A stretch of 64,000 nt of DNA, from assembly GCA_030272155.1 (NCBI GenBank), contig CP126198.1:124001-188000 (forward strand), written 5' to 3'. This document shows positions 1 to 63,737 of this stretch, one piece after another; the first letter of the stretch is position 1; the number at the start of each line of letters is the position of its first letter. A program made the position numbers and the translations under genes. The notes below the pieces were generated by a model. It saw only the letters and a program-made list of their open reading frames with translations, did not search any database and was not told the DNA's origin. This DNA is from Tetradesmus obliquus. Its lineage: Eukaryota > Chlorophyta > Chlorophyceae > Sphaeropleales > Scenedesmaceae.

Positions 1-68
1 CAGCAGTGAGCGTGACAGTTGGGGCGGTGGGCGGTGGTAGCCTTCTGGAATGATCGCCATGTGGTTGG

Positions 69-113
<45 letters not shown>

Positions 114-192
114 GAGAGCGAGAGTCAGGGCAGTGGGCGTGTGGTAGCCTTCTGGTATGATCGCCAAGTGGTTGGCCTGCGCTTAGCAGAAC

Positions 193-253: not shown

Positions 254-1002
254 TATGGGGGCAGCAGCAGTGTGGATGTTGCAGCTGCTGGCGCAGCACA
301 CACCACACTGCACCAGATGACACCAAGCATAGCCCTGCTGCCCAGCGACAGCCCAGACACAAACAGGTGCAGCAGCTGAAGCAGCAAACCGCATGACAGT
401 TGCGCCTGATTGACAGCAACGGCAGCAGCCTGGCTGGTCAAGTCATGCACGATACCCACTCACCCACACCGCCTCAACAGAGAGACACCCCCACACAACA
501 CCCACACACTTGGATGCACCTGAATGCAAGATTTCCTGGCGACAATTAAAAAACACGCACTCACCACGTCACCCAGCGCATCAGCTGACCCTCGTGCTCC
601 CCCAGTGGGGGGGGGGGGGGCCCAGCAGGCACGTCAGCCCAGCCATGCGGCAGGCACACGCTGCTGACAAGACAGGGCTAAGGAAGCTTTTTGCAGCAAG
701 CTGCCATGCACCGCAGTCAGCATGCGCAGCGCAGCATCACTGCGCCAGCCGCAAATGCTGCAGCCCCCCCCCCCCCCAAAAAAAAATAAAAAAAAAATAC
801 ACACATACACACCTCTCTCGCCATCAGCTGCTCACCAGCGTCACCCACCGCATCAGCTGCACCGGCAGCTGGCCCTCATGCTCCCCCAGGGGGGGCGGCC
901 CCAGCAGGCCCAGCAGCCAGCGGCCCAGCGGGCTGCCCCGCTGCTCCCACCAGAACAGGCCCTGCAGCCGCACACTGGCCACGGCTTCCTGCAGGCACAT
1001 AT

Positions 1003-1052
<50 letters not shown>

Positions 1053-1138
1053 GATCAGGTGAGGTGAGGGTGTGCTGCTCCCACCAGAACAGGCCCTGCA
1101 GCCGCACACACTGGCCACAGCCTCCTGCAGGCACATAT

Positions 1139-1192
<54 letters not shown>

Positions 1193-1903
1193 GGGAAGGC
1201 AAGGTGGCAGGGTGGGTGAATTGAAAGTGGTAGGCTGCTGCAGTGACAGTCAATCGTAAAAAAGGAGAAAAGTGCATGCTGACACCGCATGAGGTGAGTG
1301 TGCTGCTCCCACAAGAGCCGGCCCTGCAGCAGGCCCGCCACCACCACCACAACCGCAGCCGCCAGCCCACACCCTGAACCCCACCTGTGTGAATCCCAAC
1401 ACAATCTCACGGCTCCCTGGGGCACTTCCCGCACCGCCTCCCCATCCCACCTCACACCCACCATTCAAACCGTATACTCTAAATCTTGCCCTGAACCCCA
1501 CCTGGGTGAAGCCCAGCACGTTCTTCCGCACTGCTTCCAAGGGAGCGTCCCGCCCCGCCTCATCAACAGCGCGCGGGTTCAGCACCAACCTACCAACACC
1601 TCGACAGCTCCAAAACCCAAAACCCCAAAACCCTCAGCCACCCCACCTGTGTGAAGCCCAGCACGTTCTTCCGCACTGCCTCCGCAGGAACCTCCCGCCC
1701 CGCCTCCCCACCTCACCATACACAACTGAACCGTGTACCCAAATTTAAACCCTAACCCTTGAACCCACTGCCCACCTGCGTGAAGCCCAGCACGTTCTTC
1801 CTGACCTCCAGCAGGGGCACATCCCGCCCCGCCTCATCGACAGCGCGCGGGTCCAGCACCAGCATCCGGCTGCCTGCTGGCACCACGTTGAGGCCCTGCA
1901 CCT

Positions 1904-1939
<36 letters not shown>

Positions 1940-5041: not shown

Positions 5042-5047
5042 TCATGT
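4968..5047. repeat. 11-bp tandem repeat CATGGCTGYAT, about 7 copies
   Basis: Units CATGGCTGCTT, CATGGCTGTAT (x2), CATGGCTGCAT (x2), CATAGCTGCAT and TACAGCTGCAT follow each other without spacing. The array abuts and slightly overlaps the predicted stop codon of the bZIP-ARM gene at 5042, so on the minus strand it would begin the 3' UTR. The period is close to one helical turn. Confidence 0.85.
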
Positions 5048-7513: not shown

Positions 7514-7528
7514 GGTGGCAGGCAGCGC

Positions 7529-8990: not shown

Positions 8991-8999
8991 GCAGCATGC

Positions 9000-10112: not shown

Positions 10113-10192
<80 letters not shown>

Positions 10193-17329: not shown

Positions 17330-17371
<42 letters not shown>

Positions 17372-19314
17372 GCAGAGTGGATGCATGATAGCACAGGCTG
17401 TGGCACATCAACATATCACAGAGGCTGTGGCACATGCGAGCAGCATGGTGGCAGCAGCTTCTTCAGGCTGTGCATTCCCGCAGCTGCTTCTGCTGCATTG
17501 CATCGGCTGTGGGCCTGCTGCTGCTGGCGGTGCGTGCAGCGCCTCACCACATGAGCGGCAGGTTGGGGTGCACCTCTGCCGCTGCCGCCTTGGCGTCCTC
17601 GCCGATGTCGCTGCATACACCAGCCAGGCCGTCCACCAAGCTGCGCAGCAGGTCCTCACGCCGCTCCTGCGCGTGTGCATGCAGCGACAAGCAGAGTGCC
17701 ATCAGTAAGTAAGCAAGTTTTGCGGCAAACACGCAGCCACAACAACTAACTTCCACTCCGCCGCTCAGCAACGTGGTCATGGGGGGGGGGGGGGTCAAAG
17801 GAGTTGCACTGCTTCTGCAGACCAATGTGTGTGTTCTGCATGTCAGGCTCCATATTTGAGGCCATCAGCACGCACTGCTGACTGCTGTGAGCACCCACGT
17901 TCCACAGCCTGCCTCGACCCCCTCCCCCAAGCCTTCCGCTGTGCTGCAGCCACACCTTCTCCACCGCCAGCCGCTCCAGCTCCAGCTGCAGGAACTCCAT
18001 GTTGGTGACGCTGATGTCGGGCTTGACGCATGCCGCCAGCGGCGCCAGCCCGCACAGCCGCCGCAGCACGCCGATGCGCGCCTGCAGGGGCACACATACC
18101 AGGTCAGGTGGCACCAGCATGCAGTTTCACGGCCAGATTTGGCGTGGTTCAAGACAGCTTGCAGCATACTGGCACATGCAGCGTGATGTACATGGTGTGT
18201 TAACTTGCTTTGTTGCTGCCGTTATGTCACATGCAGTAACGACGCCATTGTGGCTGCACTGTCCAGCTGCGGCATTGCTCCGCTGCCCACCGCGCCCAGC
18301 GCGCCAGCTGCTGCTCCTGCCGTCCACTACGAGAGCTGCTGCTGTGTGCCGATGCACCCCCGTCCAGCCTGCCCCCAAAGCCGCCCCCCTCACCTGCAGG
18401 TCCTCGTACTCCGCCAGCCGCAATTATGCTGCTGCAACTGCAATATCTCACTGTGCCACTGTGCCACTGCATTGCCCCGCTGCAGCCCGCAAGCCAGCCA
18501 GCTGCCGTCCCCCTCACCTGCAGGTCCTCGTACTCCGCCAGCCGCGCCAGCTTCTGCTTCTGCCAGTACTTGGCCTTGAGGCACACGTCCTCCTCCCAGG
18601 CGCGCAGCGTCTTGTGCGCGCAGCGGCTGCCCTGCAGGAGGCAAGCAAGGCAAGCAGGAACAAGTGCAAGTGCATGCTTGCTGTCAGGGCTGCTACAGTT
18701 TAGGATGGACGGAAGGGATGCGCATGTCTGTGCAGCGGCAGTGCGGGCAGTACAGAATGCTGCAGTACATGAATGTGTCTGGTGCATATACCCTGAGTTA
18801 ATTGCTCAGCGGCAGCACAACATGTGCTGGTGTTGGGCTCTGGTAAGCAGTGGTTTGACATTGCCAGACATCATGATGCGCAGCGTGGGAGGCTGTTGGA
18901 GCTGCTAAGACTGGCTGCTGCTCCCTGCTGACACTCGGTCAAACACCATGCAGCTGCCGCCTGACCGCCTACCTGCAGCCGTGACAGCTCTGCCTCTGCT
19001 GCTGGGTCTGCTGCTGCCCCCAGGGCCTCCTTGGTCTCCATCATCTCAGCAAGCATCTGCTGGATGGAGTCGCGCACTGCTTGCTGCTGCTGATGTGCGC
19101 TGCTGACCGCGCCAGCCCAGCACTCGCGCACTGCCTTGAGCACACCGGCTAGTTCCTGCTGCTGCTGGTCGCATGGCGTCTCTAGGTCTGCCCAGACGTC
19201 TGCTAGCTTGAGGAATGCTTCCTTGGCAGTGCTTGGGTAGTCTGCTGTATGCTGATGCAGGTCGTCCAGCAGCTCTAGGCCTACAGCTGCTGCAGACATG
19301 CTCACATCTGCCAT
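14477..19314 (-). CDS. MAP65: Microtubule-associated protein MAP65/PRC1/Ase1 family
   Basis: Eleven exons with matching phases: 18973-19314 (ATG), 18518-18631, 17956-18081, 17548-17666, 17189-17330, 16865-17008, 16415-16636, 16085-16195, 15734-15886, 15203-15531, 14477-14999 (stop); 774 aa. The N-terminal half is coiled coil. The best family match is the microtubule-binding core at about residues 404-490: EDAWLEDYENDEGRYK followed by ANRKLQRAIKAKKLRERLPG and FTYDGRDYE, which corresponds to the plant/fungal block with WLEDY, R-x-Y and the Lys/Arg-rich helix. MAP65 proteins crosslink antiparallel microtubules in the spindle midzone and phragmoplast. The C-terminal tail (about 250 aa) is Ala/Ser/Arg-rich with TP/SP sites, typical of a cell-cycle-regulated tail. 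A donor-like site near 14520 means the extreme C-terminus could differ. The gene is longer than plant MAP65 (about 600 aa) because of this tail. Confidence 0.9.
18386..18421 (-). repeat. Echo of MAP65 exon 2 3' edge with donor
   Basis: About 36 bp identical to the end of exon 2 plus its donor (18510-18545) lie about 125 bp downstream inside the intron. They encode the same AEYEDLQ residues and the same GTGAGG donor. Confidence 0.9.
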
Positions 19315-23929: not shown

Positions 23930-24466
23930 ATGGCGAGCAGCACAGCGCGATCTGTGCTGCTGCCAGCTGCAGCCTTTCTTCTCCTGCTGTCAGCCTCTTT
24001 TGCTGCAGCCCAGCAAATCATCCCCGAAGCTCCTGAGAACAGCAGCACGCCTGACAACACAAATGAAGCAAGCCCCGGCAATGGTGCCTGCTGTGCACAG
24101 CTGCGGGCTCTCAACTTCAGCAGCAACATCCCCGTGATGGTTGTGCAGCTGGCACACACAGAGCAGATGGCTGGCAAGGTCACACCTACACAGGCTCAGC
24201 TGCTAGCAAAGGGGCCATACATGCCTGGGGTTGCCTGCACATGCGGCGCTGCACCAGGTGAGTGCTAAGAGTGCTCTTGCTGCTTGCAACAGGCCGGTAC
24301 AGCAGAAGAGCACTGTCAAAACACACCACACGCCATTTGTCCTGCTGCTGCCGCTGCTGCTGCCGCATCCATCTGCTGCCACCAATACAGATGGCGATGA
24401 CTTCGACGTTCTGCCAGTGCGGTTGTGGCTTGGAAACTGTTGAAACACACCGCATGCCATAAATGC

Positions 24467-24516
<50 letters not shown>

Positions 24517-44587: not shown

Positions 44588-46755
44588 CGCAGAAGGGCTG
44601 GCGGTGGCTTGCAGGGCAGGGGTTGCGGCAGTTGCAGCCGGCGCACAGGATTGCGGTGGCTTGCTGCACAAGCAGTGCTGCCGCCTTCCACGCAAGCATG
44701 ACCTGGACTGCATGCGGCGAAAATCGCTGCTGTTGCAAGAAGCAGCAGACACCACAGCAGCATGCATGGCTTGAAATTTGTGACATGAGTCTGTCGGCCC
44801 TGCTGTATTTTGTGTACACCCTCCTTGATGTGATTTCAGCAATGGTGCATGACTGGCTGTGGCCGCGCCATATGACGCCTGCTGTGTGAAAGGCACCCAG
44901 CAGCGGTTGCCGCACACAGGCCGAGCAGTGCACTGCTGCAGCCAGGCCGTTGCGCCATCGTGCGGCATTGCACAGGAGCGACTTTGTGTTGGCGGATATC
45001 TCTATATATACATACAGATTACAGGTATTGCATGCAGTTGAAGTTCCATTGCATGGCATGGCCGTTGTGAAGTTTCTGTCAATAGCTATGATGTCGCTAT
45101 GTGCTGCAGCGAGTGGGCACCATGCTGCTTGACTATTGGCACACTCTGCTGCTCTTGAGTGTATTGACAGAGGTATGGCGCTCGCATGCAAGTCATTGTG
45201 CAGCTTGCTGGTGTGTTTGTGGAAAACAGATAGGGCTGTGCTGCAGAGTTTGTAAGGATGTCTGTCCAGCCGTGAGGGTCTTTGGGGTGTGATTGCTGCA
45301 TAGCCCGCCACCCACTGGCAAGCTTGTGTTGGGGTCGGTCTGAATGGTCGGTTTGAATGGCTGTTTGCTGAACAACCCAGCAGGTGTGTTTGCTGAATTG
45401 GGCAGCTGAGTGGGCTGCACCAGTGGCGGAGTGCTGCTTTTGGAGCATCAGGTGCCGCAGGGCTGGTTCCAGTTCTTGCAATACCTGGTGTGCGTGTAAC
45501 ACTTTTGACTTGAATTGTACACCCTTCACCTCTGACCCCACAGCTTTACTTACCGTGAAAAACTGTTTGACACGTTTGCACAGTGTACCAGACAGCCTGC
45601 CAAATTTGGCATAACGCACCTGGATCACCCGTGGTACAAGGTGTTACACAAGGTATTGCAGGCAAGTCAACAACGACGTAAGCCCACATTTTTATTCAAG
45701 CAGCCAGCACAGCAGTGCTGTTGTGCTGCCAGCAGCATTTACGCAGCACAACTGTAGTGATTCAGACATAACGCTGTTCCTGCACAAACTTCACCCGAAC
45801 TTCACCAGTACTACAACAAAGCTACCCTTCCTGCCCAGCAGCCATATGGATGCATCAACATGTGCAGCATGCTGTGAGCAACAAAACATGTTCTAACAAC
45901 AGTACAACACGTGCGTCATCAGGCTCGCAGCTGCACAGCTGCAGCCAAGATGCACCACCTGCTGCAGGGCAGCTGTGCCTGCTACAGCCCGGCACGGTGT
46001 GAGGCATGACAACAGCCTGCCGGCACCTGCGCTGGCGGCGCTATCAGGCCAGCACAGCACGCATCACAACATGATTTGAGCCTGCAACAATACACCAGAA
46101 CAAGCGCTCACAAAGTCCTGAACACCGCAAGTCCTGCACACCACAAGACACCCAAACAGGGGCTCAAAAAGTCCTGAACACCACGCTGCTTGCTGGCAGC
46201 CTCCACTCTTTTCCCTGCGCCAGTCACACTAAGCCGCGCCCTTGCTAGCAGAGGTGTAGCTGGTAATGAGGTTGCCGTGCTCAGGAGATTACCCCAGAGC
46301 CAGCAGCCCCCCCTGCAGGGTCAGCAGACCCGCCAATCCTTCTGCAGCTCAGAGGCACTGACTTACAGCACAGCAATCAAACCATCAATGCGCAGCAATG
46401 TGTCCAGATAACAGTGCGGCAGCCTGGCAGGTTCAAAACCCACAACTGTTCATTTTCGGCACCACTGCTGGCAGCCCACCAGACAGGGACGATCAAACTG
46501 CAACATTAAGCCGCGCCCTGGCTGGCTAAGGTGCAGCTGGTAATGAGGTTGCCGTACTCGGGCAGGCAGCCAGCCAGCAGCTCACCCAGCCCTGCCCCTG
46601 CCCTGGGCCCCAGCCGCAAACCCTTCTGCAGCTCACAGACACTCAACAAAACACAGCAATGAACCACCAATGCCCAGCAATATCTCCAGCAACTAAACAG
46701 TGCAGCAGCCTGGCAGGTCATTAAACCCCGCACAGGGCTAAACCTCTGTGCAACA
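44588..46755. other. Convergent intergenic region, 2.2 kb
   Basis: 3' flank of the SelU-like gene, where a SECIS element would be expected, and 3' flank of the isochorismatase gene with its terminal-exon echoes. No further gene is recognised. Candidate ATGA starts at 44698, 44783, 44849, 44871 and 45091 do not form a complete SECIS fold by eye. Confidence 0.45.
46205..46640 (-). repeat. Two echoes of isochorismatase terminal exon
   Basis: Copies of the last exon's 3' edge, including the stop region, lie downstream at about 46500-46640 and 46205-46350. Both still encode CELQK-like, LGPRAGAGLGELLAG-like and PEYGNLI-like pieces. The nearer copy is better preserved. Spacing is about 255 and 295 bp. 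Confidence 0.9.
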
Positions 46756-48357
46756 CTACACCGCCCCCTTGCTGGCAGATGAGTAGCTCCTGATCAGGTT
46801 GCCGTACTCAGGCAGGTAGCCAGCCAGCAGCTCACCCAGCCCTTGCCCTGCCCTAGGGCCCAGCCGCCAATCCTTCTGCAGCTCACAGGCCACTGCAAAC
46901 CAATTGATAGGCACAGCACCAGCCGCCACTGCACGGGCCAGTGCGGCATCACGCACCGCCTCACTGAAGGTGCCACTTGCGTCAGTGACGATGTACACTT
47001 CGTAGCCTTCGGCGAGCAGGGAGAGGGTCGGGAACAGTACGCACACGTCGGTGACAATGCCGGCCAGCAGGATCTTCTTGCGGCCGGTGGCCTGGAGGCA
47101 GCAGCAGCAGCAGCAGCAGCAGGGCAGGGCGCGGCAGACGGTGTCAAATTCTTGGCATGGTGCAGGGCACAGGGGGTACTGTTGGTGGTGAGCTTCAGCA
47201 AGCAAATGGCAGATTTATTGCATAATTAATGCAGATTTGAAACGTGATGTGGCGGCAGCACCTGAACTGACACTCGCCTTGCCACATCATGTCTGCTGCA
47301 AATACGCTCGGTCATCAGCGGCTGAGGCCTTGACAGCCTTGCAGATGCTATGCTAGCGCTGGCAACACACAAGGGCCAGCGCGTTCCGCTGGTGCTGCCG
47401 TCTGCAGCTGGGCTTCATCCCAGACACACTATAGTTCATTTTTATCTATAATCCAGCACGCTGGCACTGCTCAGTGACGGCATGGCCTCTGTAGTCGCAT
47501 GCTCACCTTGACTGCGTTGACAAAGTCAGTGTTGTCCCACGCGTTGATCTCTCCGGGGCGGTTGATGAGTGTGGCTTTTGGGAACATCTCCCTGATCTCA
47601 GGCAGCAGAGGGCCATTGGGCCCCTGGGGCAGGCTGGTGGTGAGGATGGTGGGCACTCCGTACAGCTTGGCAGTGGCGGCCAGTGCCAGCACGTTATTTT
47701 TGAAGCCTGTGACGCTGTAGTCCCTCACCAGCTGGAACAGGCCCGTCTGGTGAATGGGAGGTGAGGGGGCAGCAGCAGCAGTAGTGGCAGCAGCGGCAGC
47801 GACAGCGGCAGCAGGGGCTGGTGAAAACTAAAGGTGTTGCCAGGTTGGGCTACTTGACCATGTTGCTGTGCACTGCTAGGAGGTAGCATGGTACTGAGGG
47901 TCCCAAAAATGTCCAGGGTTGCGGCAGGTAGATGCGGTGGGGAAAGGCCGTCGCTGGCTGTGTTCAGGCTGCGCTGATTTTGCCAACAGCCAAGTGTATC
48001 AATGGTCGAGTATGTCTAGCGCAGCTGCAGTTGGTATGCTGGGCGTCACAGCCGTGAGATACAGCACAGCAGTGTCAATTGTACTGCTAGCGCTGCTGCC
48101 ACCAAAACAGCCAGCTGTCCTGCAGGCACCTGCTGACTGGCAATGGCAATGGTCAGCACTGAACAAACCACAGGCCGTCAGCAATTGTAACACACCTGGT
48201 GGTCCAGCATCAGCAGCACGGAGTTGTTGGCGGAGATCCTGTTCTCCTTGACCTGCTGCCTGACCCAGTTGCGCTGGTCGGTGCTCTGGCAGCTGCCAGG
48301 CAGCAGCAATGCAAGCACCGCGGCAAGACACAACACAAAGCGTACGTTGTAAGACAT
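46756..48357 (-). CDS. Isochorismatase-family hydrolase, YcaC-like, with signal peptide
   Basis: Three exons: 48196-48357 (ATG), 47507-47746, 46756-47091 (stop); 245 aa. The start at 48357 is chosen because it opens a signal peptide (VRFVLCLAAVLALLLPGSC); an upstream ATG in the same frame exists. Family marks: LLMLDHQ with the catalytic Asp (about residue 52), TGLFQLVRDYS, KNNVLALAATAKLYGVPTIL, TTSLPQGPNGPLLPEI, INAWDNTDFV, GRKKILLAGIVTDVCV with the catalytic Cys (about residue 151), YEVYIVTDASGTF and NWFAVACELQKDWR. The order matches bacterial YcaC-type hydrolases of the cysteine hydrolase superfamily, whose substrate is unknown. Secretion or vacuolar delivery is inferred from the signal. 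Bacterial origin by old transfer is possible, but the introns show full nuclear integration. Confidence 0.93.
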
Positions 48358-48812: not shown

Positions 48813-50489
48813 GTCTGCAGTTGATCAGCTTGGCAAGTGTGCGAAGGTGCGCAAAACGCCCTTGACCGGCGCTATTATGCTGCATTCAACTGAAACTCTT
48901 GTTAACAGCATTGGAAATGCATCCAAGACATTCTGTGCACCTACATTCAAACAGCTGCCAGTTGGTACTGCCCACCCCACTGTGCTGGCAGTGCAGCAGC
49001 ACTACGCCAGGTTCCTGCAGCGCTGCTGTCTGCCAAGTCGTTTTATAAGTTGCAGGAAAGACATTACATTTTGCGACAGCATCAATGCAACATAATGCGT
49101 ACTCACATCTAGAAGGTAGAAAAATCGTCACTGTACATGCAGCATGCCACAGAAACCCATAGGGGTATGAAATACCCCTAGAGGCCTCTGGCAGCCATAC
49201 AGCATGCAACCTCCTTCCTTAATGTGTTTGTCGACAGGAACCCAAAGGTCAAAGTGCCATGCGCCAGGTGACAATTGCACATCAAATATCTGTGCATCTG
49301 CACCCTGGGTATGGCACAACACTAACCAAGAGAACACAGCACTGCGTGCGCACACGTAAGGTTCTCAGAGCAACAACAGCAAGCCTAAAGTCTCTTCAGA
49401 CCCTGAGCATCTGTCAGCAGGCCTTGCACGCAATGAGCGGTGCTGCCAACAGGATTGAAAAGCAGTCAGAAGCAGACAACACCGACATTGAAACGCATCT
49501 GCAGACTATGAGCCCAGCCACATGAGAGAACGACCTCCTCTGGAAGCCTCGCACTGCGAGGCCACACACAGCAGAACATGCCAACCTCATATGATATGCA
49601 TGTTATTCAAGCTTCTCGGCTGCGACACAATGCAATGCAGCACCCCTGTTTTTGTAGCGCCCGACGCAGAACCCCGGTTTGCAAACTGTGAAGGCAGCCA
49701 CACACTTCCACGCCCCACCTCGCTTGCAGGCAATGCTCCTGCTCAATGGCTGCTTGATCTACCAGCCAGCAATACAATGCAACAACACACAGCCGCACCA
49801 TCTGATATGCATCTCAGCATGCAATGGCAACCGCCGCACCCCCGCCTTCCCCCTTAACCCCACCTCCCGTGCGCCATGATTGGCGCAGCACTATGTTGCT
49901 GCGCCAAATGGTGAAACGTCTACAAGGTTACTTCTAGTACTGAAGCAGGACGACAAACTGAAGGGCATGCTGCACAGTTTGATAGCCACACTCAAGACCA
50001 GTGGTGCTGCACAACATGCATTGACCTGTACATACTACAAGCGCCGCAACGGCCAAATGTTCAAGGCTAGTGTGCATGACACACTGGCTACTGCGTCCAT
50101 GCCGCATACAGAGCAGCCATGTTATATGACAGCATGTTGGGCATCTCTGCAGACAAACAACCAGTTGGTACCCGATGCACTCGGGAAACCCTCTGAACTG
50201 AGAGCCACCCAACACCCATGTCTGCATGTGCTGTGTGAAAAACTGCTACGATCAGCAGCCCACTGCTGTCCAGAGAGAGAAAGCGGCTTGACCAACCAAG
50301 CTGCAGGTGCCAGCAGCACACGCATGCGCCACATGCAGACACTACACAGCGGACACAGGCGGCTCATAGTGTTTGAGCTGGTGGATGCAGCAAATGGCAA
50401 CAGCACATGTGAGTGTAGCAGGTACCCACCCTTGGGCTCAGGGCGCGGCTTTGCCAAAACGACACTCGCATTAATGTGCCAGGCGGCAG

Positions 50490-51700
50490 CGCTTAGTACT
50501 GCTGCTGTTGCAGCTGCTGCTGGCCTGACGTAACGCCAGCCCTTCCAAGCGCAAACGTGCTGCTGCTGCCAGCACCACCAGCCGCTGCTGCTGCTGCTGC
50601 CAGAGGGCTGCCCACCGTTGCCACAGAGCTCCTGCTGCCTGGCATGCTGCCTGGAGCAGCACTGTGCTGGATGCCACAACTTGGCACTCTCACAATGATG
50701 CCAACCCAGCAGGGCTCAGTACTGCTGCTGCAGCGGCTGTTGCTGCTGACGTGGCGTGACCCCAGCCCTGCCAGGTGCAAACATGCTGCTGCTGCTGCTG
50801 CTGCCGCCACCAGCCGCTGCTGCTGCTGCTGCTGCTGCTATCGCTGAAGGGCTGCCCACAGTGGCCACGCAGCTCCTGCTGCCTGGCATGCTGCCTGGCG
50901 CTGCACTGTGCTCGATAGGTGTTACCACCACTTGACACTCCCACAATGGTAATGTATTGATTTCAACCCAGCAGGATTCAGTACTGCTGCTGCAGTGGCT
51001 GCTGCTGGCCCGGCATGACCCCAGCCCTGCCAGGCGAAAACATGCTGCTGCCGCTGCTGCCGCCAGCACCAGCCGCTGCTATTGCTGAAGGGCTGCCCAC
51101 CGTTGCCACAGAGCTCCTGCTGCCTGGCATGCTGCCTGCATCTGGACTGTGCTCAAGCCACGACTTGACACTCCCACCATCGTTGCATTTTAACCCAACA
51201 GGGCTTAGTACTGCTGCTGCAGCGGCTGTCGCTGGCCCGGCATGACCCCAGCCCTGCCAGGCGCAAATGCACTAGTGCTGCTGCCAGGACTGCCAGACGC
51301 TGCTGCTGCTGCAGCCAGAGGGCTGCCGACAGTCGCCACAGAGCTCCTGCTGCCTGGCATGCTGCCTGGCATGCTGCCTGGCATGCTGCCTGGCATGCTG
51401 CCTGGCATGCTGCCTGAATCTGGACTGTGCGCGAGGCCACCGCTTGACACTGCCACGCTGTTTTCAACCCAACAGGGCTTAGTACTGCTGCTGCAGCGGC
51501 TGTCGCTGGCCCGGCATGACCCCAGCCCTGCCAGGTGCAAATGCGCTGCTGCCGCCAGCACCGCCAGCTGCTGCTATTGCTGAAGGGCTGCCCACAGTAG
51601 CCACTGAGCTCCTGCTGCCTGGCATGCTGCCTAAACCTGGACTGTGCTCAGGCTGGGGTGGCTGCTGCTGCTGCTGCTGCTGCTGTGGGTGCTGTGCATG
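50490..51700 (-). repeat. Five echoes of the terminal exon, membrane protein gene
   Basis: The C-terminal coding end, PLQQQY or QQQQY plus stop, recurs near 51480, 51208, 50978, 50719 and 50496 downstream of the authentic stop at 51791. Each copy also keeps SVATVGSP and GRAGVMPGQ-like pieces, so about 45 codons and the 3' flank are copied. One unit contains a 12-bp repeat (GCATGCTGCCTG, six copies, 51351-51416) encoding GSMP. Confidence 0.92.
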
Positions 51701-51790
51701 CCTGGCATGCTGCCTGGCGCTGCACTGTGCTCGAGGCCACCAGTGAACACTCCAACGACATATTCTGTGGCAATTTCAACCCAGCAGGGC

Positions 51791-53729
51791 TCAGTACTGC
51801 TGCTGCAGTGGCTGTCGCTGGCCCGGCATGACCCCAGCCCTTCCAACCGCAAATGCGCTGCTGCCGCCAGCACCGCCAGCTGCTGCTATTGCTGAAGGGC
51901 TGCCCACAGTTGCCACGGAGCTCCTGCTGCCTGGCATGCTGCCTGGAGCAGCACTGCTGCTCAGGCTGGGGTGACTGCTGCTGCTGCTGCTGTGCATGCT
52001 GTGCGTGCCGCAGCTGCTGCCACTGCTGCTGCAGCCACTGTGGAACTCCGTCAGGTACGGCCTCGCTGACCCTTGTTGCTGCTGCTGCTGCTGCTGCTGG
52101 GTGGTGCTGCTGTCATCCAAGGTCTTGTAGCTGCCATCACTCGCCAGTGCAATGCGTGCACTGCCAACACCAGCGAGCCCCTCACCAGGCTTGCAGCTAC
52201 CTGCTGCTGCTGAGGGTGCTGCTGCACCCACCAACTCATCACCTGCTGCAGCCGGTGCAGCGTCCGCCAAGCCGCCAAAGTCATATGCCAGTGCGAAAGG
52301 AGAGGCCTTCACCTTGCTGTGGGGACCAGGGGGGCTGCTGCTGCTGCCGCTGCTGCTGGCAATGCCCAGGGCAGCTAGGTCCAGCACTGCAGGGGTAGGA
52401 GGCCCGAGCAAGCCAGGCGAGCCTCCCCTCTCTGCTGCTGCTGCTGCTGAGGCTGTTGGTACAGCAGATGCTGCTGCTGCAGAAGCCGCAGGGGAGACAG
52501 AGCCTGCTGCTGGAAGGGTCACTGCCAGGGGTGCAGGCCTGGCAGGCGTGCCTGGGCTCAGGGGGCCCCCATGCTGCTGCACATGATGCCCTGCTGCTGC
52601 CGCTGCTGCTGCTGCTGCTGCAGTCACACCTGCAGCGGGTGCTGCACTTGAGCCAGGCACCCAGCCGCCCCTCCTGCTGACGAGATCCGGCTCGGCACTG
52701 CTGCTGCTGCTGGGCAGCAGTGGCAGCACAGGTGCTGCTGCTGCCGACCCATGCTGCTGCTGGTGTTCGGCAAGGAGTGCTGCTCGAGCAGCTAGCACTC
52801 GCTGAGCGCTGGACTGGCCCGCTGCTGCTGCTGCTGCTGATTGTGCCGGATCCTGCTGCTGCTGCTGCTGCTGCTGCTCCTCGTCATCATCCACTTCAAA
52901 CCTGACAGCAGATGTGACAGAGTCACCCAGCTCGCGCATGGCTGGCCTGATCTGATCAGGATCAAGCAGGTCATCCTCAACAGCAGCAGCAGCAGCAGAA
53001 GTGCCTGCAGCTGCTGCTGCTGCTGCTGCTGTGGGTGAGTCTGCTGGGGGCTCTGGGGCCAGGTAGCGCCGCTTGCCCTCCCTCCTCCGCTGCAAAAGGG
53101 TGCAAGAAAACAGCAGCAGCAGACAAGCACAGCAGGCAAGAGGTCAGGACATGCATCCCTAAAGCCAAAAACAGCTACCTCTGAAGAGCAGCAAGCATGG
53201 TTGAGATGCAACTGTACATGCTGTGTTGCAGCAGCGTCCAAACGAGACAGGCAGGGAAAGGCACACCGTCTTGCACACACATCACACGCAGTAATGCACA
53301 CTCTGCTGTACACTGCCACAACATCCAACACGCCAGCCGCCGCTCACCCTCCTGCATGACACCACTGTGCAGAATGGTTCGGCAGCAGCATCAAGCATTC
53401 CAGCCAAGAAAGGGAGTGCATGCTTTACTGCAAACACTACAGCAAGACAATCTCTGCTGCATTCTGCCATAACAGCGCCCTAACACGCCAGCCGCTGCTC
53501 ACCCTCCTGCGTGCGCTGCTGGCCTCGCTACCATCATGGTCATGCTTGGCAGCATGCTCCGCTGCAGCACGCCGCCGCCGCACCAGCAGCAGCAGCAGGC
53601 CGGCCGCCAGCGCTGCTGCTGCTGCCGCGCCTACAGCAATGCCTGCGATGGCGCCTGGCGCCAGCTTTGCGGCTGTGGCAGCACCATTCTCAGGGGGCCC
53701 GGGCTGCAGTGGATAGCCAGAGCAACACG

Positions 53730-53760
<31 letters not shown>

Positions 53761-54602
53761 GCATAGGATCAGCAGGGCGACGAGTTTCCAGGATGCATGA
53801 TACAAAACCACTGCACAGGCGCCTGGCGCCAGCCTGGCAGGGGTGGCGGCGCCTCCCTCGGGTGGGCCGGGCTGCAGTGGATAGCCACAGTAGTGCAGCA
53901 GCAGCAGCAGCAGCAGCATAGGATCAGCAGGGTGAGGAGATGCCAGGATGCATGGTACACAACCAGTTTACAGGCGCCTGGCGCCAGCCTTGCAGCGGCT
54001 ACAGCGCCTCCCTCAGGTGGGCCGGGCTGCAGCATATGGCAAAAGCAACGCAGCAGCAGCAGGCATGGCAGTAAAACCAGGGTGAGGATGATCCAAGGCG
54101 CATACATATCTGCAAAGCATGTCTATGACCCGCCGACTGCAGCTTTCGCACATGCAAGTGGCTTGTTGCCAGTGGCTGTCATGTGCCTAGTTGTGCAACA
54201 TTCAGCCACTCGAACGCGCCCTGCCACAAGCCAGCCCACCCCACATCACCACACGAACCAACAACTTCACACCAGCCAGCCGTCACAACACATGACATGC
54301 ACCAGCGCGTCCCAAATCCTGCCCACCCACATCATCACCAACAGCAGCCCACGTCGACAACAGCAGCATACCAGCAAACCACTCACCGGCCCATCCCAGA
54401 TCTCTGGAGGCATCAGCCACTTGATCAGCGCATGGGGGCCAATCGGGTCAGGCAGCCCACTGGCGCGGATGCCCGCATACACGTTGGCAGGGGCTGCCAG
54501 CCACGCGCCCAGCACTGCATCTGTGCCTGCTGCTGCCTGGCTAGGCGTGATGCCAACCGCCAGCCGGATGGCCAAAGACACCTGCAAGCGGGGAACAGGC
54601 GG

Positions 54603-54640
<38 letters not shown>

Positions 54641-57600
54641 AGAAACATGTAATGACCTGAGTGAGAGCCAGGCACAGGGGCTGGGCGTGATACCCACTGC
54701 CAGCCAAATGCCCAGGGCGACCTGCAAGCAAAAAACACAGAGGAGCAGTGGCAATGGAGCAAATGCTAGACTGCATCTTTTGCCTGCTGGTGCCTCACTA
54801 GGCATGATGCCTACTGCCAACCGTATGCCAAGCGACACCTGCAAGCACAAAACCGAGGAGCAGTGGCGATGTGAGCAAACGCTGGGATGCTTCTGTGCCT
54901 GCTGCTGCCTGGCTGGGCGTGGTGCCCACTGCAAGGCGGATGGGTTTTGGGGCTGGGGGTGATACCAACTGCAAGCCGGATACCCAGCGACACCTGCAAT
55001 AGCCCCTCCCCCATACCACTGCGCGGCACGATCTGCGAACAACTCACCATGGGGTCGTCAGTCATCCACAGGTCATACTCCGGCCCATCAACGCCCAGCA
55101 TGCCAGCCCCCAGCAGCGCCTGCCCGCAATCAAACTCCTCTGGCAAGACTCTTCGCACCACAGTTGTAGCACTGCCGCGCGCATCGAAGGGTCACCCGCC
55201 AGCCGCATGTTGCAAGCTTTCAAAGAAAACACATGCTGTTACAGTCTCCAAATGCAAAGCTTTCCCTTGCGAAAGCTACCATTGCTCACCATGGGATCAT
55301 CCGTCATCCACAGGTCATACTCCGGCCCATCGATGCCCAGCATGCCCGCCCCCAGCAGCGCCTGACGCACCGCCAGCCCACCCACCTCACCGCCACCAAA
55401 TCACTGCAACGCTTGCCAAATGCTCATTTACACCAGCTAGCAAGCCCAAACAACACATGATCGTACAGCTTCTACTCCACCAGACACTATAACGACAAGT
55501 CATAGCACTCACCATGGGATCATCCGTCATCCACAGGTCATACTCCGGCCCATCGATGCCCAGCATGCCAGCCCCCAGCAGCGCCTGACGCACTGCCAGC
55601 CCACACCGCGATCCAGTCAGTGGAGCAGGACCATCCAAGCTCAAGCCACATGAGGTGGCAAGGGCACACAGCAGCACTGAGGTGTTGGCTGGCAGCAGCC
55701 GCCCGAAGCTGAGCCACACTTTGGTCCAGCCCTCGCTGCTGCTGCTGCTGCTGCCGGGCACGTCCGCGCCCCACGGGGCCAGATCCATGCTGCTGCTGTC
55801 AGCTTGCAGAACCATCCTGCTGTTAGCGCTGCTTCTGCTGCTGCTGCTGCTACCAGCTTGCAGGATCATCCTGCTGCTGCTGCTGCTGGTCTGTAGCAGC
55901 CGCCGTGCCAGCGCCCGGCGGCCGCTGGCCACATCTGCGCCCCCCAGCATATGCGGATGCTGCCTGTTCCCCACCGTCATGTTATTCACCGGCACGCGTG
56001 TTACGGCTGCCGGCGGGCTGGCCTCAAACTGCTCGGCTGGCACGCCAAAATCCGGCGCTGCTGTGTACACGTGTATCAGGGCAGGGTCGTAGCCGCCTGC
56101 CATGCCTGAGGCTGCGCTGCGCAGCGCTGCTGTTGCTGCGTCACTCCAGGGCGTTGCGAGGCCCTTGAATGCAAAGCTGAGCGTGACGTTGGCCGCAGCC
56201 GCCAGCTGGATCTGCATTCAGATGAAGGACGCGGTGGTGAGCAGGTGTGCATTAGTGCAACGCGGCGCAACGCAAGATGATGGTGACCGCCAGCTGGTTT
56301 CTGCAATGCACACGCATATGTGTGTGTGGGTTGAAGAGTGACGAACAGTAGGGCTGCGTCGCTCCAGGGTGCTGCCAGGCCCTTGAAGGCGAAGCTGAGC
56401 GTGACGTTGGCTGCAGCCGCCAGCTGGATTTGCAACGCACAACATGATGTGTGAATGCACACATATGTGTGAGGGTGGAGCAGCAGCGCAGAGCAGCCAG
56501 CGTGACGCTGGCTGCAGCCGCCAGCTGGATCTGCAGGCCACAGCAATGTGTGGATGCATACAAATGTGTGTGAAGGTGGAGCAGCAGTGCAGGTCAACAA
56601 TGCAGTGTGCAGTGTTGCGGCAGCCGCAAAAGTTGTTGACCAGGCCCTGCACCTGCCCTATGGCCGCATCACTCAGCATGGCAGGGCTGCTAAAGTTGCT
56701 GGCTATACCCTAAACCCCAAACCCAAACCCTTAAAACCTGCTGCTGCTAGAAACCTCCGTCCGCACCTGCCCCGGCGCCATCGCGCTGAAGTTGGTGACC
56801 AGGCCCTGCACCTGCCCCATGGCCGCATCACTCAGCATGGCAGGGCTGCTGAAGTTGCTCACTGCCCAGCCACAAAACACCCAGCGGGACATCCAGGGCA
56901 GGCCTGGCTTGTCATCCAGAGGCATGCCTAAGGGGTTGCCCTCATGGCCATCTGGCCGCATGTAAGAGTAGTCAATCGCGCTGCTGCTGGCAGGGGCAGT
57001 GTGGTTTGCGGCATCCTGGAAGCTGCTGCACATGCCGGCGTGCTGTGGTAGGGTGGTGGGGGATGCTGTGGTGGCGTTCTGCAGCTGCTGGGGGCTGCTG
57101 CGGTTGCTGCTGCTGCTGGTGGTGGTGATTGAAGGTTGGGGTGAGGCTGCATTGCTGCTGCTGGGGGAGGGGCTGACAGCTGGCCCCACTTGCACTTTGA
57201 TGGCTTTGCTGCTTGCGTCGCCAGCTGCTGCTGGTTGACCTGCACTCCAGTTGAAGTTGACTGACCAGCTTCCTGCCAAGCCCTGAAGGAGGCCGCCTGG
57301 CGGCAGCGTGGCAGCGCTGCTGCTGCTGCTGCTGACTGGCAGGACAGGGGCCTGCTGCAGCGTGCGCGCCTGCCTCAGGCTGCTGCTGCCATGCGCAGCA
57401 AGACTCCTGCTGCTGGGCAGCTGCTTTGGCTCCAAGCCCCCAACAGCACGGCGAGGAACATGTATGTTTCTGCCTCCTGCTGGCGATGGCTGCTGCTGTT
57501 CCTGCTCCTGTTCCTGCTGCTTCTGCTTCTGCTTCTGCCAGCCTGTATCAACCTTGGCTACTGACACCAGTGCTCCGCTGACCTCCGACAGACAGAGAAC

Positions 57601-58586: not shown

Positions 58587-61500
58587 CTAGTGCTCCTGCG
58601 AGCTGGAGCCCGGCCTGCTCATCATGCCCAGGAAGGCCACCTCAGCCTGCAGCAGCTCGTCATCACTACCACCAGCAGCAGCAGCAGCAGCAGGCGACAC
58701 CATACTGCTGCTGCCGCCATTGCTCGCCGCTGCCGGCCTACTGCCAGCACTGCCACTACTCAAGCCGCTACTCATCCCTGACCCTGCTGCCGCTCCCACC
58801 GGCTGCGCAGCCGCCTGCAGCTGCTGCTTACCGCCGCCATCACCCACAGCTGCCGCCGCCTTACTACTACTACCAGCCACTGCTGCCGCTGCCTCCGCTG
58901 CCTCTGCTTGCGCGTAAAACCGCTCCGCATTCTCTAGCTGCACCGCCAGCGGCGCCAGCACCGTGCGCTGCACCTTAGCCAGTGTTGCTCTGTGTGCTGG
59001 CGCCTTTGCGGCCAGCAGCAGCAGCATCCAGCCCAGCTGCAGCTGGAAGGCTTTCCAGGGGCCTTCTGGCACTGCTGCCCGCACGGGCTGGAAGGCGGGT
59101 GCTGACCGCGCCACCAGTCCCTGCCACAACCCTCCCGCGTCCTCTTGCACTGCAGCGCAACAGACATGCAGTGCAGGCAGGAGCATTAGCGGACAACATC
59201 AGTTAGGGCTGAACCTAAGACCTTTTGCGCCACCAGGCCCTGCCACAACCCGCCCGCAATCCTCTTGCACTGCAGTGCAGCGCAAAATTGTAAAGTTTGA
59301 TTGTGGAGGTTGTATGATATGTGTGACGCGCCAGCCACCAGGCCCTGCCACAGCCCGCCCGCGTCCTCTTGCACTGCAACAGTGCGGCAGAAATGGGGTG
59401 TGCAGGCAGGCGCAGCATGTGCAATTCCAAGTAAAACCAAGGGGATCCATTGTTCAATAGTTAAGGCTAGAACGTGTGTGGAATGGAATACACAGATATG
59501 GGAATTCAGCCAAAAAAAGTTGCATGTGGTGCGCATGGCTACAGCAGTGATAGCAACCGTAATAGAGGCATGCGCAGCAGGCAGCACAGGCCCTGCAAAA
59601 CAACCAGCATGCAGGAGTCCTGCCTGGTGTTGCCATGCTGGTCACAAAAGCTGCAGCGCCTGCCCTATCCAACGCCCGCAGCGAAGCCGTGCGCCTACTT
59701 TGCCCACAGCCGCTACTCACTTGACCACGTGCGCAGCACCGCAAGGCCCGAGGTGTGGTCAGTCACAACCGACGGCAGCAGCGACACCGGCTGCTCCAGA
59801 GGATTGATGCCAACACTGCCAGCACCACCATCCTGCTGCTGCTGCTGCTGCGGCCCAGCTGCCGCTGCTGCTGACCTGCCGCCGCTGCCCTGATGCCTGA
59901 GCTTGCCGCCTGCTGCCGCCGGCTGCTGCAGCGGCGGGTGCGCAGGCGCCGTCCCAAGCCCCGACACAACAAACGTGCCGCTGCCACCACTCGCACTGCC
60001 CGTCCTCTGCACCCCTGGCGTCACACTCCCGGCGCCAGCAGCAGCAGCAGCAGCACTGCCCGTGCCTTGTCCAGCTGCTGCTGCTGGCAGTGTAGCTGGA
60101 TCCGAGGCATCCACAACCAGCCCTAGCAGATCTGCTGCCTGCCTGATCACTGCAGCAGGCGGTGTGGCAGCAGCACCAGCGCCGCCCAGCACCACGCGTG
60201 CAGCAGCGCCGCGGCCGCTGCCGGTGATGGCCAGCGCTCCACGTGACAGCGCCCGCAGCAGCGCCAGCAGCATATCGGCTTCGAATTCTGCACGGTCGTC
60301 TGCATCGTCGGCCGTGTCGGCGCGCACGGCTACAAACTCCAGTGCACTGCATGGCAGGACAGCAGCAGCAGCAGCAGGAGATGTGGTGAGAACAGGAGAT
60401 GTGACTGACAGTGCAAGAACAGCCTTTGGTGCTACGGATATGGAAGCAAATCAAACAGAATATGGTGGATGCAAAAAAGGCCCTCTAGCCTTACCACGCA
60501 GCCTAGTGGCTGTCGGCGGGTCGCCCACGCCCAGCAGCCGGAGCAGCAGCAAACCCCTTCCCAACCACGTACCGCATTAGCCAGCAACACCCTATAGCCT
60601 CATCGCGCCGCCTGTGTGGCTGCTTGCGGATCCCTCCACGCCCAGCAACCGAAACAGCAGGCAAGACCCTTCCCAACAGCAAACCCCACTAACCAGCAAA
60701 ACCCTCACCGCGCCGCCTGTGTTGCTGTCTGCGGGTCATCCACCCCCAGCAGCGGAACAGCAAGCGCAACCCTTCCTAACCACATTCATTAACCAGCAAA
60801 ACCTTCCAGCCTCACCGCGCCGCCTGTGTTGCTGTCTGCGGGTCATCCACCCCCAGCAGCCTGAACAGCGCCGGCAGCACATCAGGGCTGCTGCTCAGCC
60901 CCCTTGCTGCCTCGGGGCAGTCCTGAGCCAGCGCCACCAGCGCGGCACACGACGCAGCCACGGCAGGGAACAGCCGCAGCGAGCCCAACGTGGCGTTCAT
61001 GTCCGGCGCCTGCATGAAAATGCAGAGGGACAGCCAACAGGGGAAATGGCAGTTGGTTTTGAGTCAGCCTGTGTGTGAGCTGGGTGTGTGGTTGTTGATG
61101 GAACAGTTGCAGCGAGCCCAGCACTGCCCGCAAGTCAGGGGCCTGCATACAACCCAGCGACAGGCCAGCCAGCGCATGACATGATGAGCTGAGCTGAGAA
61201 GAGAGAGCGGCGCAATACGAGGGAGTGCTTGTGCGCGTGGATTGATGCTGCATGGGGAGCGCCAGCGCGCCACATGCGCCAGCGACAGCAGGGAACAGCC
61301 ACAGCGAGCCCAGCGCGGCATTCATGTCCGGGGCGTGCATCCACAAGCACTCCGCAGCATGTGCAGCAACACTGTACTCAAAACACACTGGAACGTTTTC
61401 CTCATGGACCTCCTGCACAGCTGCATCCCCACACCACGTTCCCTGCAAGCTGCACCCCCATGCCACCCTTCCTGCAAGCTGCACCCCCATGTCACCCTTC

Positions 61501-63737
61501 CTGCAAGCTGCATCCCCATTGCCACCCTTCCTGCAAGCTGCACCTCCATGCCACCCTTCCTGCAAGCTGTACCCCCATGTCACCCTTCCTGCAAGCTGCA
61601 TCCCCATTGCCACCCTTCCTGCAAGCTGCACCCCCATGCCACCCCTCCTGCAAGCTGCACCCATGCCACCCTTCCTGCAAGCTGCACCCCCATGCCACCC
61701 TTCCTGCAAGCTGCACCCCCATGCCACCCTTCCTGCAAGCTGCACCCCCATGCCACCCTTCCTGCAAGCTGCACCCCCATGCCACCCTTCCTGCAAGATG
61801 CATCCGAACCACCCAGCCCCCCCTCACCTCCGCAGCCATCAGCAGCAGCCGCGCCAGCACGTCCACCGCCCCACTCTCCCTCGCCAGCAGCTTATTCGGC
61901 GCACAAAACTCCACAGCAGCCGCCACAGCGCCCGCCACGCCCGCCAGCAGCCCACCATGCGGCGCAGCAGCCTCCAGGCTCTCCCCTAGCGCCAGCGCCG
62001 CCAGGCCTGCTAACTGATCGATCAGGCCCTCGGATGCCGCTGCTGCTTGGTTTGCATGGCAGCCGTGGCAGAGCTGCTCTAGCACTGCCACAGCAGCCGC
62101 CAGCAGCTGCAGCGTGGCGGTTTGCTGTGCGACTTCAAGCTGCGCCAGCTGCTGAGCCGGGCCCGGCTGCTGCTGCTGCTGCTGCTGCTGGGCTTTGGAT
62201 AGCGAGGTCCTCACTCGCAGCTGCGCCACAGCACTTAGGCGGCCGCCGCTGCCCGGGCGATCTGGTGTAGAGCGGCCCGAATCAGAATGCAGCAGATAGC
62301 CGCCGCCGCCGCCGCTGCTGCTGCTGCCGTTGGCATGCTGAGGTGAGCGGTTGAAGGACCCGCCAAGGTGCTGCAGGTGCTGCTGTTGCTGCTGCTGCTG
62401 CGCCACAGCCGCCTGCAGCGCCCCCTTTCCCAGCTGCAGCATGTCCACCAGCAGCAGCATCGCGCATTGCTGCCTCGCAGTGTTCTTCGTGAACATGTTG
62501 TCATGTGCAAGCGCCCCAATCGCCTCCAGGCAGGCCACGCGCACATGCAGCAGACCCAGCTGGTGCCGCGCAGCAGCAACAGACGCATCCTCCGCATGAG
62601 CAGCAGCAGCAGCCGCTTGCTGCTGCCGCTGCCCGGCTACGGCCGCCGCCGCTTCTTTGCTGCTCAGGATGCCTGCTGCCGCCGCTGCTGCTGCTGCGGT
62701 ACCATCAGCCTGCTGCTGCTGCTGCTGCTTGTCAGCAGGTGCCTCTGCCACCTCATCTGGCACCAAATCTGAGTCACCGTCACTTGATGCTGCTGCTGCT
62801 GCCTCGTCAGCCGCCGCATTGCTGCTGCCAGCCTTACTCGCATCCTCCGCTGTGCGCGAAACAGCGGCAGCAGCAGCCGCAGCCGCCGCTGCAGCAGCCG
62901 CAGCAGCAGCCGCCGCCTGTGCCTCCGGCGCCGCTGCCGCTGCTGCATTATTTGCAGGATCCAGCCGATCCAGCAGCGCAGCCAGGCCCCCTGCTGCAGT
63001 GATCTGGCCCTGCAGCTCAGTGTCATTTTGTGCTAAAACCCCTAGGGTTTGTGCTGCTGCCAGCAGCGTGGCTGGTGAGGGGCTGCTGCGCAGCAGGTGC
63101 ACCAGCAGCGGCAGCAGGCCGTACTGCAGGGCCTGGGCCTTGCCTTGGGGGTTGGCGTCAAGTAACGGTGGCAAAGCAGCCATGCACACCTGCAGCACGG
63201 GGTGGGGCAGTGCATCAACAATATCTCACAGCCAGCATGTCTTCACCCCAGCACCGCCACTACCATCATCACCACCCCCTGAGAGCATCCAGGGCTGTGC
63301 ACACAGCAACTCCACTGCCGCTCCTTCACGCAGCGGTCTCACACTGCTCACCACCAACAGCGTGTTCACGCTCCTGCTCGAGGCCACCCTCACCACTGTA
63401 GCATGCAGCCAAAAGTAGGACTGTGTATAGTATCCAATCTAGATCTGCATCTGTACCTCTACCAAGGCACATCTTTCCTCCTCCGCCCCTCACCTCAAAC
63501 ACCGACACCCCTGCGATAGCCTGCTGCTGCAGCATGTTCAACACCACAACATGGCTCCGTGCCACCCACCCATGCAGCAACAAAGATGCAAACCTCCCCT
63601 CCGCGCCTCACCTCTGACACCAGCACGCCTGCAATGGCCTGCTGCTGCAGCACATTCATCACCACAGCCACCAGCCCCCCGGCAGTGGCCTCAGCCTGCG
63701 CCCCCGGCTGCGCCTTGCTGGCAAGCAGCGACAGCAC
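58587..63737 (-). CDS. Armadillo-like repeat protein, Ala/Gln-rich, 5' end missing
   Basis: Five exons are placed: 63612-63737, 61828-63189, 60816-61009, 59721-60346, 58587-59149 (stop); phases agree. The 5' end lies above 63737, probably outside the window. Helical repeat pieces: LVAVVMNVLQQQAIAGVLVS, VCMAALPPLLDANPQGKA, GLLPLLVHLLRSSPSPATLL, AAQTLGVLAQND, LHVRVACLEAIGALAHDNMF, GLIDQLAGLAALALGESL, CAALVALAQDCPEAARGL and VLPALFRLLGVDD. This periodicity is armadillo/HEAT-like. Long Ala and Gln runs and Ser-rich linkers separate the repeats. The last exon (DAGGLWQGLVARSAPAFQPV) is well conserved-looking. Such proteins act as scaffolds, but no partner can be inferred. Alternative: part of a larger HEAT-repeat protein. 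Echoes flank four of the five exons. Confidence 0.8.
59225..59390 (-). repeat. Two echoes of armadillo-gene last exon 5' edge
   Basis: The acceptor CTGCAG plus the segment encoding QEDAGGLWQGLVA recurs at about 59225-59285 and 59325-59385, upstream of the authentic exon starting at 59149. Confidence 0.93.
60488..60775 (-). repeat. Three echoes of armadillo-gene exon 3' edge
   Basis: LFRLLGVDDPQTATQAAR-like ends with GTGAG/GTAAG/ATGAG donors recur at about 60706-60775, 60600-60662 and 60488-60553, a spacing near 110 bp, downstream of exon 60816-61009. Confidence 0.93.
61100..61345 (-). repeat. Two echoes of armadillo-gene exon 5' edge
   Basis: The acceptor side of exon 60816-61009 (APDMNAALGSLWLFPAVAG) recurs at about 61270-61340 and, shorter, at 61105-61160. 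Confidence 0.9.
61436..61800. repeat. 29-bp minisatellite, about 12-13 copies
   Basis: Unit of the form CTTCCTGCAAGCTGCACCCC plus CATGCCACC, with minor variants (one 26-bp unit). It lies in the intron downstream of exon 61828-63189. Because 29 is not a multiple of 3, all frames cycle through it and make long but meaningless open frames on both strands. Confidence 0.95.
63483..63545 (-). repeat. Echo of armadillo-gene exon 63612-63737 3' edge
   Basis: One diverged copy of NVLQQQAIAGVSVFE-type coding end with its GTGAGG donor, about 125 bp downstream of the authentic edge. Confidence 0.88.

Follow-up and report, generated by a model that had tools for sequence, protein, structure and literature searches.

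Copies of exon ends with a preferred unit length lie beside coding edges in the genome of Tetradesmus obliquus

Paired nicks lying near each other on opposite strands give rise to short tandem duplications in plants, for which we know of neither an exon-edge bias nor a lower limit of ~95 bp, and introner elements are intron-sized insertions in algae that form dispersed families. The accessible text of a review of intron gain covers tandem genomic duplication and the repair of staggered breaks with direct repeats (PMC3443670), and that of a report on the potato RdRp gene describes a single tandem duplication across an intron-exon boundary, containing the acceptor and the 5' edge of the exon (PMC4974935). 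Here we analysed a 64-kb window of the Tetradesmus obliquus genome (C8:124001-188000; 104.66 Mb in 17 contigs), together with 280 kb from C1, C3, a second place on C8, and C12, which makes 344 kb from five places on four chromosome-size contigs. A sequence-only reading of the window had described partial copies of exon ends, with their splice sites, within introns. Self-BLAST confirmed such copies, here termed echoes, in all five places. They share a narrow range of unit lengths and are anchored at exon edges beyond the nulls we tried, and three spacers between copies, when searched in the genome, proved to be of local origin.

The echoes are like the potato RdRp case in being boundary-crossing tandem duplications with an acceptor and an exon 5' edge, but the potato case, as far as its accessible text goes, was one event that made a new intron and altered the mRNA, whereas in T. 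obliquus about one-fifth of the tested splice edges are affected, the unit is narrow, and existing introns are lengthened (PMC4974935). With AGGT-type intron gain (Rogers) they have in common the local tandem duplication in genes with copies of splice sites. However, that route requires an exonic AGGT as both donor and acceptor, while the T. obliquus blocks are not enriched in AGGT and the intron was apparently already there. Direct repeats flanking an inserted sequence, which the repeat-spacer-repeat events may represent, also recall staggered-break end joining, e.g., in Daphnia. Those repeats are short according to the accessible text of the review (PMC3443670), whereas the matched blocks in T. 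obliquus are tied to exon edges. Of the 50 non-array events, i.e., those whose offset exceeds the matched block, 46 have blocks of 29-112 bases. No report of a genome-wide class of edge-anchored echoes was among the literature matches listed (most subscription papers fell outside the search), and the matches listed for paired nicks and microDNA held nothing specific. Within the literature searched, the known kind of which this class is a variant is local tandem duplication.

Local direct repeats made up 20, 11, 8, 8, and 25% of the five places (~13% overall) by self-BLAST, and local inverted repeats 0.5-4.5% per place. Exact 18-mer runs within 3 kb, which were counted separately, numbered 749 direct versus 65 inverted, and self-BLAST of the window gave 87 direct pairs less than 5 kb apart versus 3 inverted pairs. 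These adjacent direct copies of a local segment are of the form made by tandem genomic duplication, and the direct runs are concentrated at 100-160 bp. The count per 10-bp bin of offset, 0-16 runs between 10 and 100 bp, rose abruptly at 100 bp and was 26, 39, 45, 29, 45, 15, and 19 from 100 to 170 bp. The unit length is therefore sharp at 100-160 bp plus multiples, with a second hump at 200-300 bp, near the double unit, in agreement with the two classes of similar unit length noted earlier in arrays of unrelated genes.

Arrays are hard to assemble and our gene models are home-made, so that an artefact of assembly or annotation has to be considered. We regard it as extremely improbable, since most copies differ from one another (edge-match identity of 65-100%), the repeats are present in all five places, and the exon joins of two genes are consistent with deposited proteins. 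The joined UFD1 exons correspond to OEZ86_014018 (P0001; 100% over the 250-residue query), and the joined exons of a ClpR2-like gene to P0121, with locus tag OEZ85_007551 from another T. obliquus assembly (99% over the 194-residue query). P0001 and P0121 represent clusters of 3 and 12 sequences, respectively, of which one each was compared. For exon calling we built a hidden Markov gene finder that starts from a codon table; an earlier unsupervised version was dropped after it collapsed into CAG-repeat introns. The finder fuses adjacent genes and at times scores an echo as an exon, and its gene counts are therefore unreliable. Hand-picked joined exons matched the Pfam families CotH, MAP65, AhpC-TSA_2, isochorismatase, and an RSN1-type family (C12). 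An exon-by-exon family search of the genome, in which two candidates were scored, missed CotH, to which the joined exons do match (PF08757, E = 9e-33, hand-joined).

Merged repeat clusters spanned a predicted exon edge in 104 of 114 cases, compared with 69.8 ± 4.6 under a local shift that kept cluster lengths (maximum of 90 in 400 trials). When only the best-scored exons were used, 84 of the 114 clusters were at edges versus 41.2 ± 4.7 by shift (maximum 54). Minisatellite arrays would be independent of gene structure, which these counts contradict. In the window 27 of 31 clusters spanned an edge, the other four lying at 1-222, 33110-33595, 48542-48811, and 61409-61814. The predicted enrichment of exon-edge copies over chance thus holds for the 344-kb sample as a whole, while the statement that copies always sit at an exon boundary has to be softened to most of them. 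Both edge types are represented as proposed: prior to strict filtering, 3' exon ends accounted for 81 edges and 5' exon ends for 82, including some that belong to echoes scored as exons. Echoes were found at 105 of 491 splice edges tested (~21%), and the window from 1862 to 18379 contained no cluster at the thresholds used. The sequence-only reading put forward a genome-wide lengthening of introns, and this agrees with a process that is present at all five places and goes beyond what random duplication, selection, and detection would give, but the reading's claim of nearly every gene was too strong.

Random tandem duplications combined with purifying selection might give a similar picture: exon-internal copies would disappear, intron-only and edge-spanning ones would persist, and the edge pattern would be visible because the exon copy is conserved. 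In accordance with this, none of the 78 exact-run clusters of 95-180 bp, sorted into strict classes, was exon-internal, as selection predicts. Stop-codon edges were also echoed at a rate indistinguishable from that of splice edges (4/25 versus 105/491, Fisher P = 0.62), and start edges at 0/10. However, 61 of these 78 clusters touched an exon and 17 were noncoding, whereas the local shift led us to expect 43.5 touching, 29.6 noncoding, and 4.9 exon-internal, and by reading, several of the 17 noncoding clusters are echo-to-echo matches inside anchored arrays. Shorter clusters (15-94 bp) behaved differently, with 3 of 23 at an edge, 2 exon-internal, and 18 noncoding (Fisher P = 2e-8 versus the 95-180 bp class). 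Matches with both copies noncoding were used because exon conservation cannot aid their detection, and these were biased in the same direction, with 27 clusters anchored and 8 not. Among the eight are a repeat within a retroelement (33110), a minisatellite (61409), one 144-bp repeat region that contributes two rows, and the echo array at 35191, for which the exon scores are low.

We also simulated random duplications, 1500 in all and matched in length to those observed, within predicted genes outside the arrays; those that altered coding were removed, and the survivors were aged and detected by the same BLAST. This null left 62% of the detected duplications noncoding-only (634/1023), compared with 17/78 and 8/35 observed (binomial P = 5e-13 and 3e-6, respectively). 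The strict edge set retained 91 of 163 edges, 87 of which had a copy covering 60% of X, the exon part of the copied block, and held 198 echo copies on these 87 edges. Among the 66 strict edges with a unit of at most 175 bp, X had a median of 55 bases at 3' exon ends (31 edges) and 46 at 5' ends (35 edges). It was mostly 25-95 bases, unlike the outcome of a uniform breakpoint, and its distribution departed from the simulated null (Kolmogorov-Smirnov P = 5e-5). Random duplication leaves both the shape of X and the lower limit of ~95 bp unexplained, and we consider it unlikely and already disfavoured. In the stretches examined, edge anchoring is tighter than random duplication plus selection predicts, and this is statistically secure against the nulls tried.

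The four echoed stop edges are of uneven quality. The echo at C3 48868 is a clear stop-codon echo, whereas the row at C12 3293 is CAG-rich and weak. In two of the four rows the predicted exon is itself an echo copy. The row at 46509 of the window is an echo copy of the last exon of an isochorismatase-like gene. The end of that exon, at 46762, likewise reads as a stop codon (the gene finder called a donor there), and its copies have stop codons at the matching place. The row at C1 22682 seems to be a copy that contains the final residues of the ClpR2-like protein. We thus count at least one clear and one probable (window 46762) stop-codon edge with an echo. Splice sites are therefore not required, which argues against a purely splicing-directed process, and the earlier description of exon-intron junctions being copied stands for splice edges without being restricted to them. 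Copying guided by splicing or RNA, e.g., with a pre-mRNA fragment as template or through R-loops at splice sites, would fit the nearly equal numbers of donor and acceptor edges and the 30 of the 50 non-array events in which the copied block extends 4-14 bases beyond the splice site. However, such block ends could also come from a conserved consensus or from decayed flanks, some units duplicate the exon together with its intron flank in full, and stop-codon edges are echoed too. We therefore find guidance by splicing or RNA improbable.

Flank comparisons gave a mixed picture. Intron flanks of single-echo edges (n = 36) were similar in 12, intermediate in 6, and unrelated in 18, and those of multi-echo edges (n = 47) were similar in 27, intermediate in 2, and unrelated in 18. 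The remaining 4 of the 87 edges (two single and two multi) had no usable flank and are outside these classes, though inside all-edge totals. Some units therefore appear to be plain duplications of exon and intron, and others either insertions between direct repeats or duplications with decayed flanks. In view of the 18 single-echo edges whose flanks are unrelated, duplication of exon and flank in strict tandem was no longer assumed to be the source of every event. The spacer between copies was 22-116 bases in 33 of the 50 non-array events and 4-246 bases in the rest, and some arrays are built as repeat-spacer-repeat-spacer-repeat.

The unrelated flanks led us to consider insertion with target-site duplication. 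Three spacers searched in the 104.7-Mb genome, by a tool that ignores very common words, matched only their own locus, where one of them is present twice within its array. Introners are dispersed and mobile elements insert in many places of a genome, whereas these three spacers are local only, and therefore no mobile element was seen. Known routes of intron gain, either by duplication of an AGGT-containing exon segment or by introner-like insertion with target-site duplication, do find some likeness here, since an insert flanked by a long target-site duplication would look much like the repeat-spacer-repeat form and the CotH array at 29811 has a CAG/GT boundary at the repeat start. However, AGGT was present in 18 of 87 copied blocks versus 13.8 ± 3.6 in random exon windows (76 of 500 draws reach 18), and the AGGT type was rejected on this absence of enrichment. 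Echoes carry an existing donor or acceptor, so that the introns appear to be older than the echoes. Known intron gain is, in our estimate, very unlikely as the source.

Single echoes were 69-100% identical to their exon, and the events therefore seem to be of many ages. Mean identity by rank from the exon was 90.4, 89.0, 88.0, 89.4, and 87.6%, which weakly agrees with the nearest copy being best preserved, as had been suggested, but forms no clear gradient of decay.

GT or AG was retained at 137 of 146 full-length echo edges, most of which thus still carry a potential decoy splice site, as the sequence-only reading had expected. However, the deposited UFD1 and ClpR2-like proteins contain each echoed segment once, so that these two comparisons gave no direct evidence of decoy use. 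Moreover, the second splice site that a complete exon would need (an acceptor before 3' echoes or a donor after 5' echoes) scored no better than random intron, on which grounds echoes as full extra exons, or as alternative or mutually exclusive exons, were rejected. Mean splice-site scores of echo versus exon were 2.17 versus 6.55 for 25 donors (P = 0.018) and 1.77 versus 5.45 for 27 acceptors (P = 0.057), but these were taken at a fixed offset that indels can shift and are not relied on.

Selection on echoes as extra exon ends or splice sites in alternative transcripts would account for the retained GT and AG and for a divergence from the nearest echo that is strongly synonymous: in the 18 single-echo edges with unrelated flanks, mismatches were 4.8, 3.1, and 22.9% at codon positions 1, 2, and 3. 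Changes private to echoes in multi-echo arrays numbered 102, 83, and 137 at the three positions (14, 7, and 49 for exon-private changes), and as codon changes they were 114 nonsynonymous to 119 synonymous, where ~70% nonsynonymous was expected. These echo-private changes may, however, be older exon states. Indels in the exon part were not multiples of three in 32 of 36 cases, and in 38 of 52 in multi-echo sets, and unit length showed no bias modulo 3 (17, 29, and 20 for remainders 0, 1, and 2; P = 0.17). Together with the single copy of each segment in the two proteins and the background-level second splice sites, this makes functional echoes an explanation that we doubt.

The explanation we tentatively favour, at somewhat less than even confidence, is a local DNA duplication process in T. 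obliquus with a preferred unit of ~100-160 bp, which acts at coding/noncoding boundaries and lengthens introns. Each event would make a second copy of an exon's first or last bases (mostly 25-95), with its splice site or stop codon and often with a spacer, and recombination between the direct repeats may then expand the pair into an array. The copy contiguous with the exon would stay in use, while the others would become part of the intron or the 3' untranslated region and lengthen it, and copies wholly inside an exon would presumably be purged by selection. Our best guess at the chemistry is the repair of staggered or paired nicks, in which fill-in could leave a direct repeat, sometimes with filler between.

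Several points weigh against this local duplication process. It accounts neither for the choice of coding edges nor for the lower bound of 95 bp, and we found no motif at the junctions and no source of nicks. The exon calls depend on the home-made gene finder. Some of the clusters observed are arrays of more than one unit and so have higher odds of contacting an edge, whereas the simulation used single units and only the shift test keeps lengths. Divergence is a further difficulty. With the nonsynonymous expectation set for a neutral echo and a synonymously free exon, the 36 flank-classed single-echo edges had 126 synonymous to 60 nonsynonymous codon differences from the nearest echo (~0.54 nonsynonymous expected, P = 2e-9; P = 5e-6 when the two unclassed single-echo edges left out, with 9 synonymous and 26 nonsynonymous, are included). 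Over all 87 edges, 263 of 441 codon differences from the nearest echo were synonymous and 178 nonsynonymous (0.53 expected, P = 7e-8). Third-position changes from weak to strong bases and the reverse were balanced (60 and 61), with no A+T drift, and a simple neutrally decaying echo leaves the third-position bias unexplained. This bias could mean that synonymous sites of exons evolve more rapidly than the echoes in introns do, that each echo preserves the exon as it stood at a different time in the past, or that selection constrained the echoes during some of their history.

The echo clusters of the window are collected in Table 1.

Table 1 Echo clusters and related features in the window (positions in the 64-kb stretch; exons as predicted)
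Feature	Position	Strand	Details
Three echo clusters (560-918, 940-1330, 1372-1861)	560..1861	-	Edges of predicted exons 849-988, 1502-1589, 1776-1895
3'-edge echo, MAP65/ASE1 exon 18518-18631	18380..18545	-	42-bp match, 98%; PF03999
5'-edge echo, predicted exon 21295-21481	21138..21337	+	
Echoes of CotH-gene exon 24526-24675	24342..24914	+	5'-edge 24342-24560; 3'-edge 24611-24914
3'-edge echo array, CotH-gene exon 25661-25781	25734..27151	+	Repeats ...SKYDPAVDPS + donor; cluster of 15 high-scoring segment pairs
5'-edge echo array, upstream of exon 27815-27953	27319..27877	+	Acceptor + GFMFSYENDNIDIGSD...
3'-edge echo, exon 27815-27953	27889..28079	+	Offset 123, X 65
5'-edge echo array, upstream of exon 28685-28871	28128..28747	+	Acceptor + WMNDFEATLLQR; unit ~100 bp
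3'-edge echo array, exon 29722-29870	29809..30709	+	CKVDPLDGISQWYRRLWQ + donor; unit ~123 bp
Array 29809-30709, continued beyond inserted retroelement	35191..35579	+	30413-30697 versus 35181-35579, 82-89%
3'-edge echo array, UFD1 exon 40053-40271	39612..40114	-	LTVGDCFVVHYNNKDYEIE + donor; unit ~112 bp; segment once in OEZ86_014018
5'-edge echo array, upstream of peroxiredoxin-like exon 43171-43387	42443..43245	+	AhpC-TSA_2, PF13911
3'-edge echo, peroxiredoxin-like exon 43171-43387	43299..43608	+	Offset 215, 86%
Echo array of last exon (46762-47091), isochorismatase-like gene	46226..46895	-	PF00857
3'-edge echo array, predicted exon 51874-52573	50452..52008	-	Unit ~220-270 bp
Echo cluster series (53301-53513, 53650-54098, 54514-54999, 55042-55604, 56135-56592)	53301..56592	-	Predicted exon edges
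Copy starting 22 bases inside predicted exon 56767-57109	56630..56859	-	Near edge, matched block not crossing; outside edge list
Echo clusters 59108-59414, 60481-60869, 60937-61340	59108..61340	-	Edges of predicted exons 58641-59120, 60816-61009
3'-edge echo, predicted exon 63612-63770	63480..63666	-	

A retroelement at 30711-35097 lies within the CotH gene and splits the echo array at 29809-35579. Its open reading frame (31493-33187, minus strand) matches reverse transcriptase and RNase H. Inverted repeats of 372 bp at 30711-31082 and 33596-33967 are 98.9% identical, and a self-complementary stretch follows at 33970-35097. Three tandem copies of 161 bp at 33110-33595, 99-100% alike, overlap one end of the reading frame. 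The 29-bp minisatellite at 61411-61802 (13.5 copies), beside predicted exon 61828-63189, is outside the echo class. Elsewhere, a region with a 144-bp tandem repeat at C8:2,029,466-2,031,189 (L023 9466 to L024 1189), with no predicted gene nearby, is among the few unanchored arrays of this size class, and repeats at a 408-bp offset (a multiple of three) within a long predicted exon at C12:1,510,457-1,512,432 (L026 457-2432) are probably a repeated protein segment. CAG/CTG triplet tracts are numerous in the window and the sample, period-3 repeats making up ~1-3% of each sampled stretch, and the observed/expected ratio of CpG was 0.57 in scored exons and 0.51 elsewhere.

Mean intron length is 462 bp in T. 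obliquus, compared with 230 bp in R. subcapitata, 302 bp in M. neglectum, 284 bp in C. zofingiensis, and 270 bp in C. reinhardtii, as given in the accessible text of the source (PMC5966456). The longer introns of T. obliquus fit lengthening by echoes without proving it. A further possibility, to which we give less weight than to the local duplication process, is a dedicated DNA copying that recognises coding boundaries, in which repeated duplications of ~125 bp centred near coding edges would be a main driver of the unusually long introns and would leave a layered record of earlier exon states, some copies perhaps having once been coding. If this were true, an episode of coding in the history of some echoes would account for the divergence at third positions. 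How introns lengthen, and how related species come to differ in intron size, is an open question, for which this one genome offers many events of different ages that can be traced in the sequence. The echoes also offer many natural cases in which to test how the spliceosome passes over a decoy site that is intact and lies 100-160 bases away from the true splice site.

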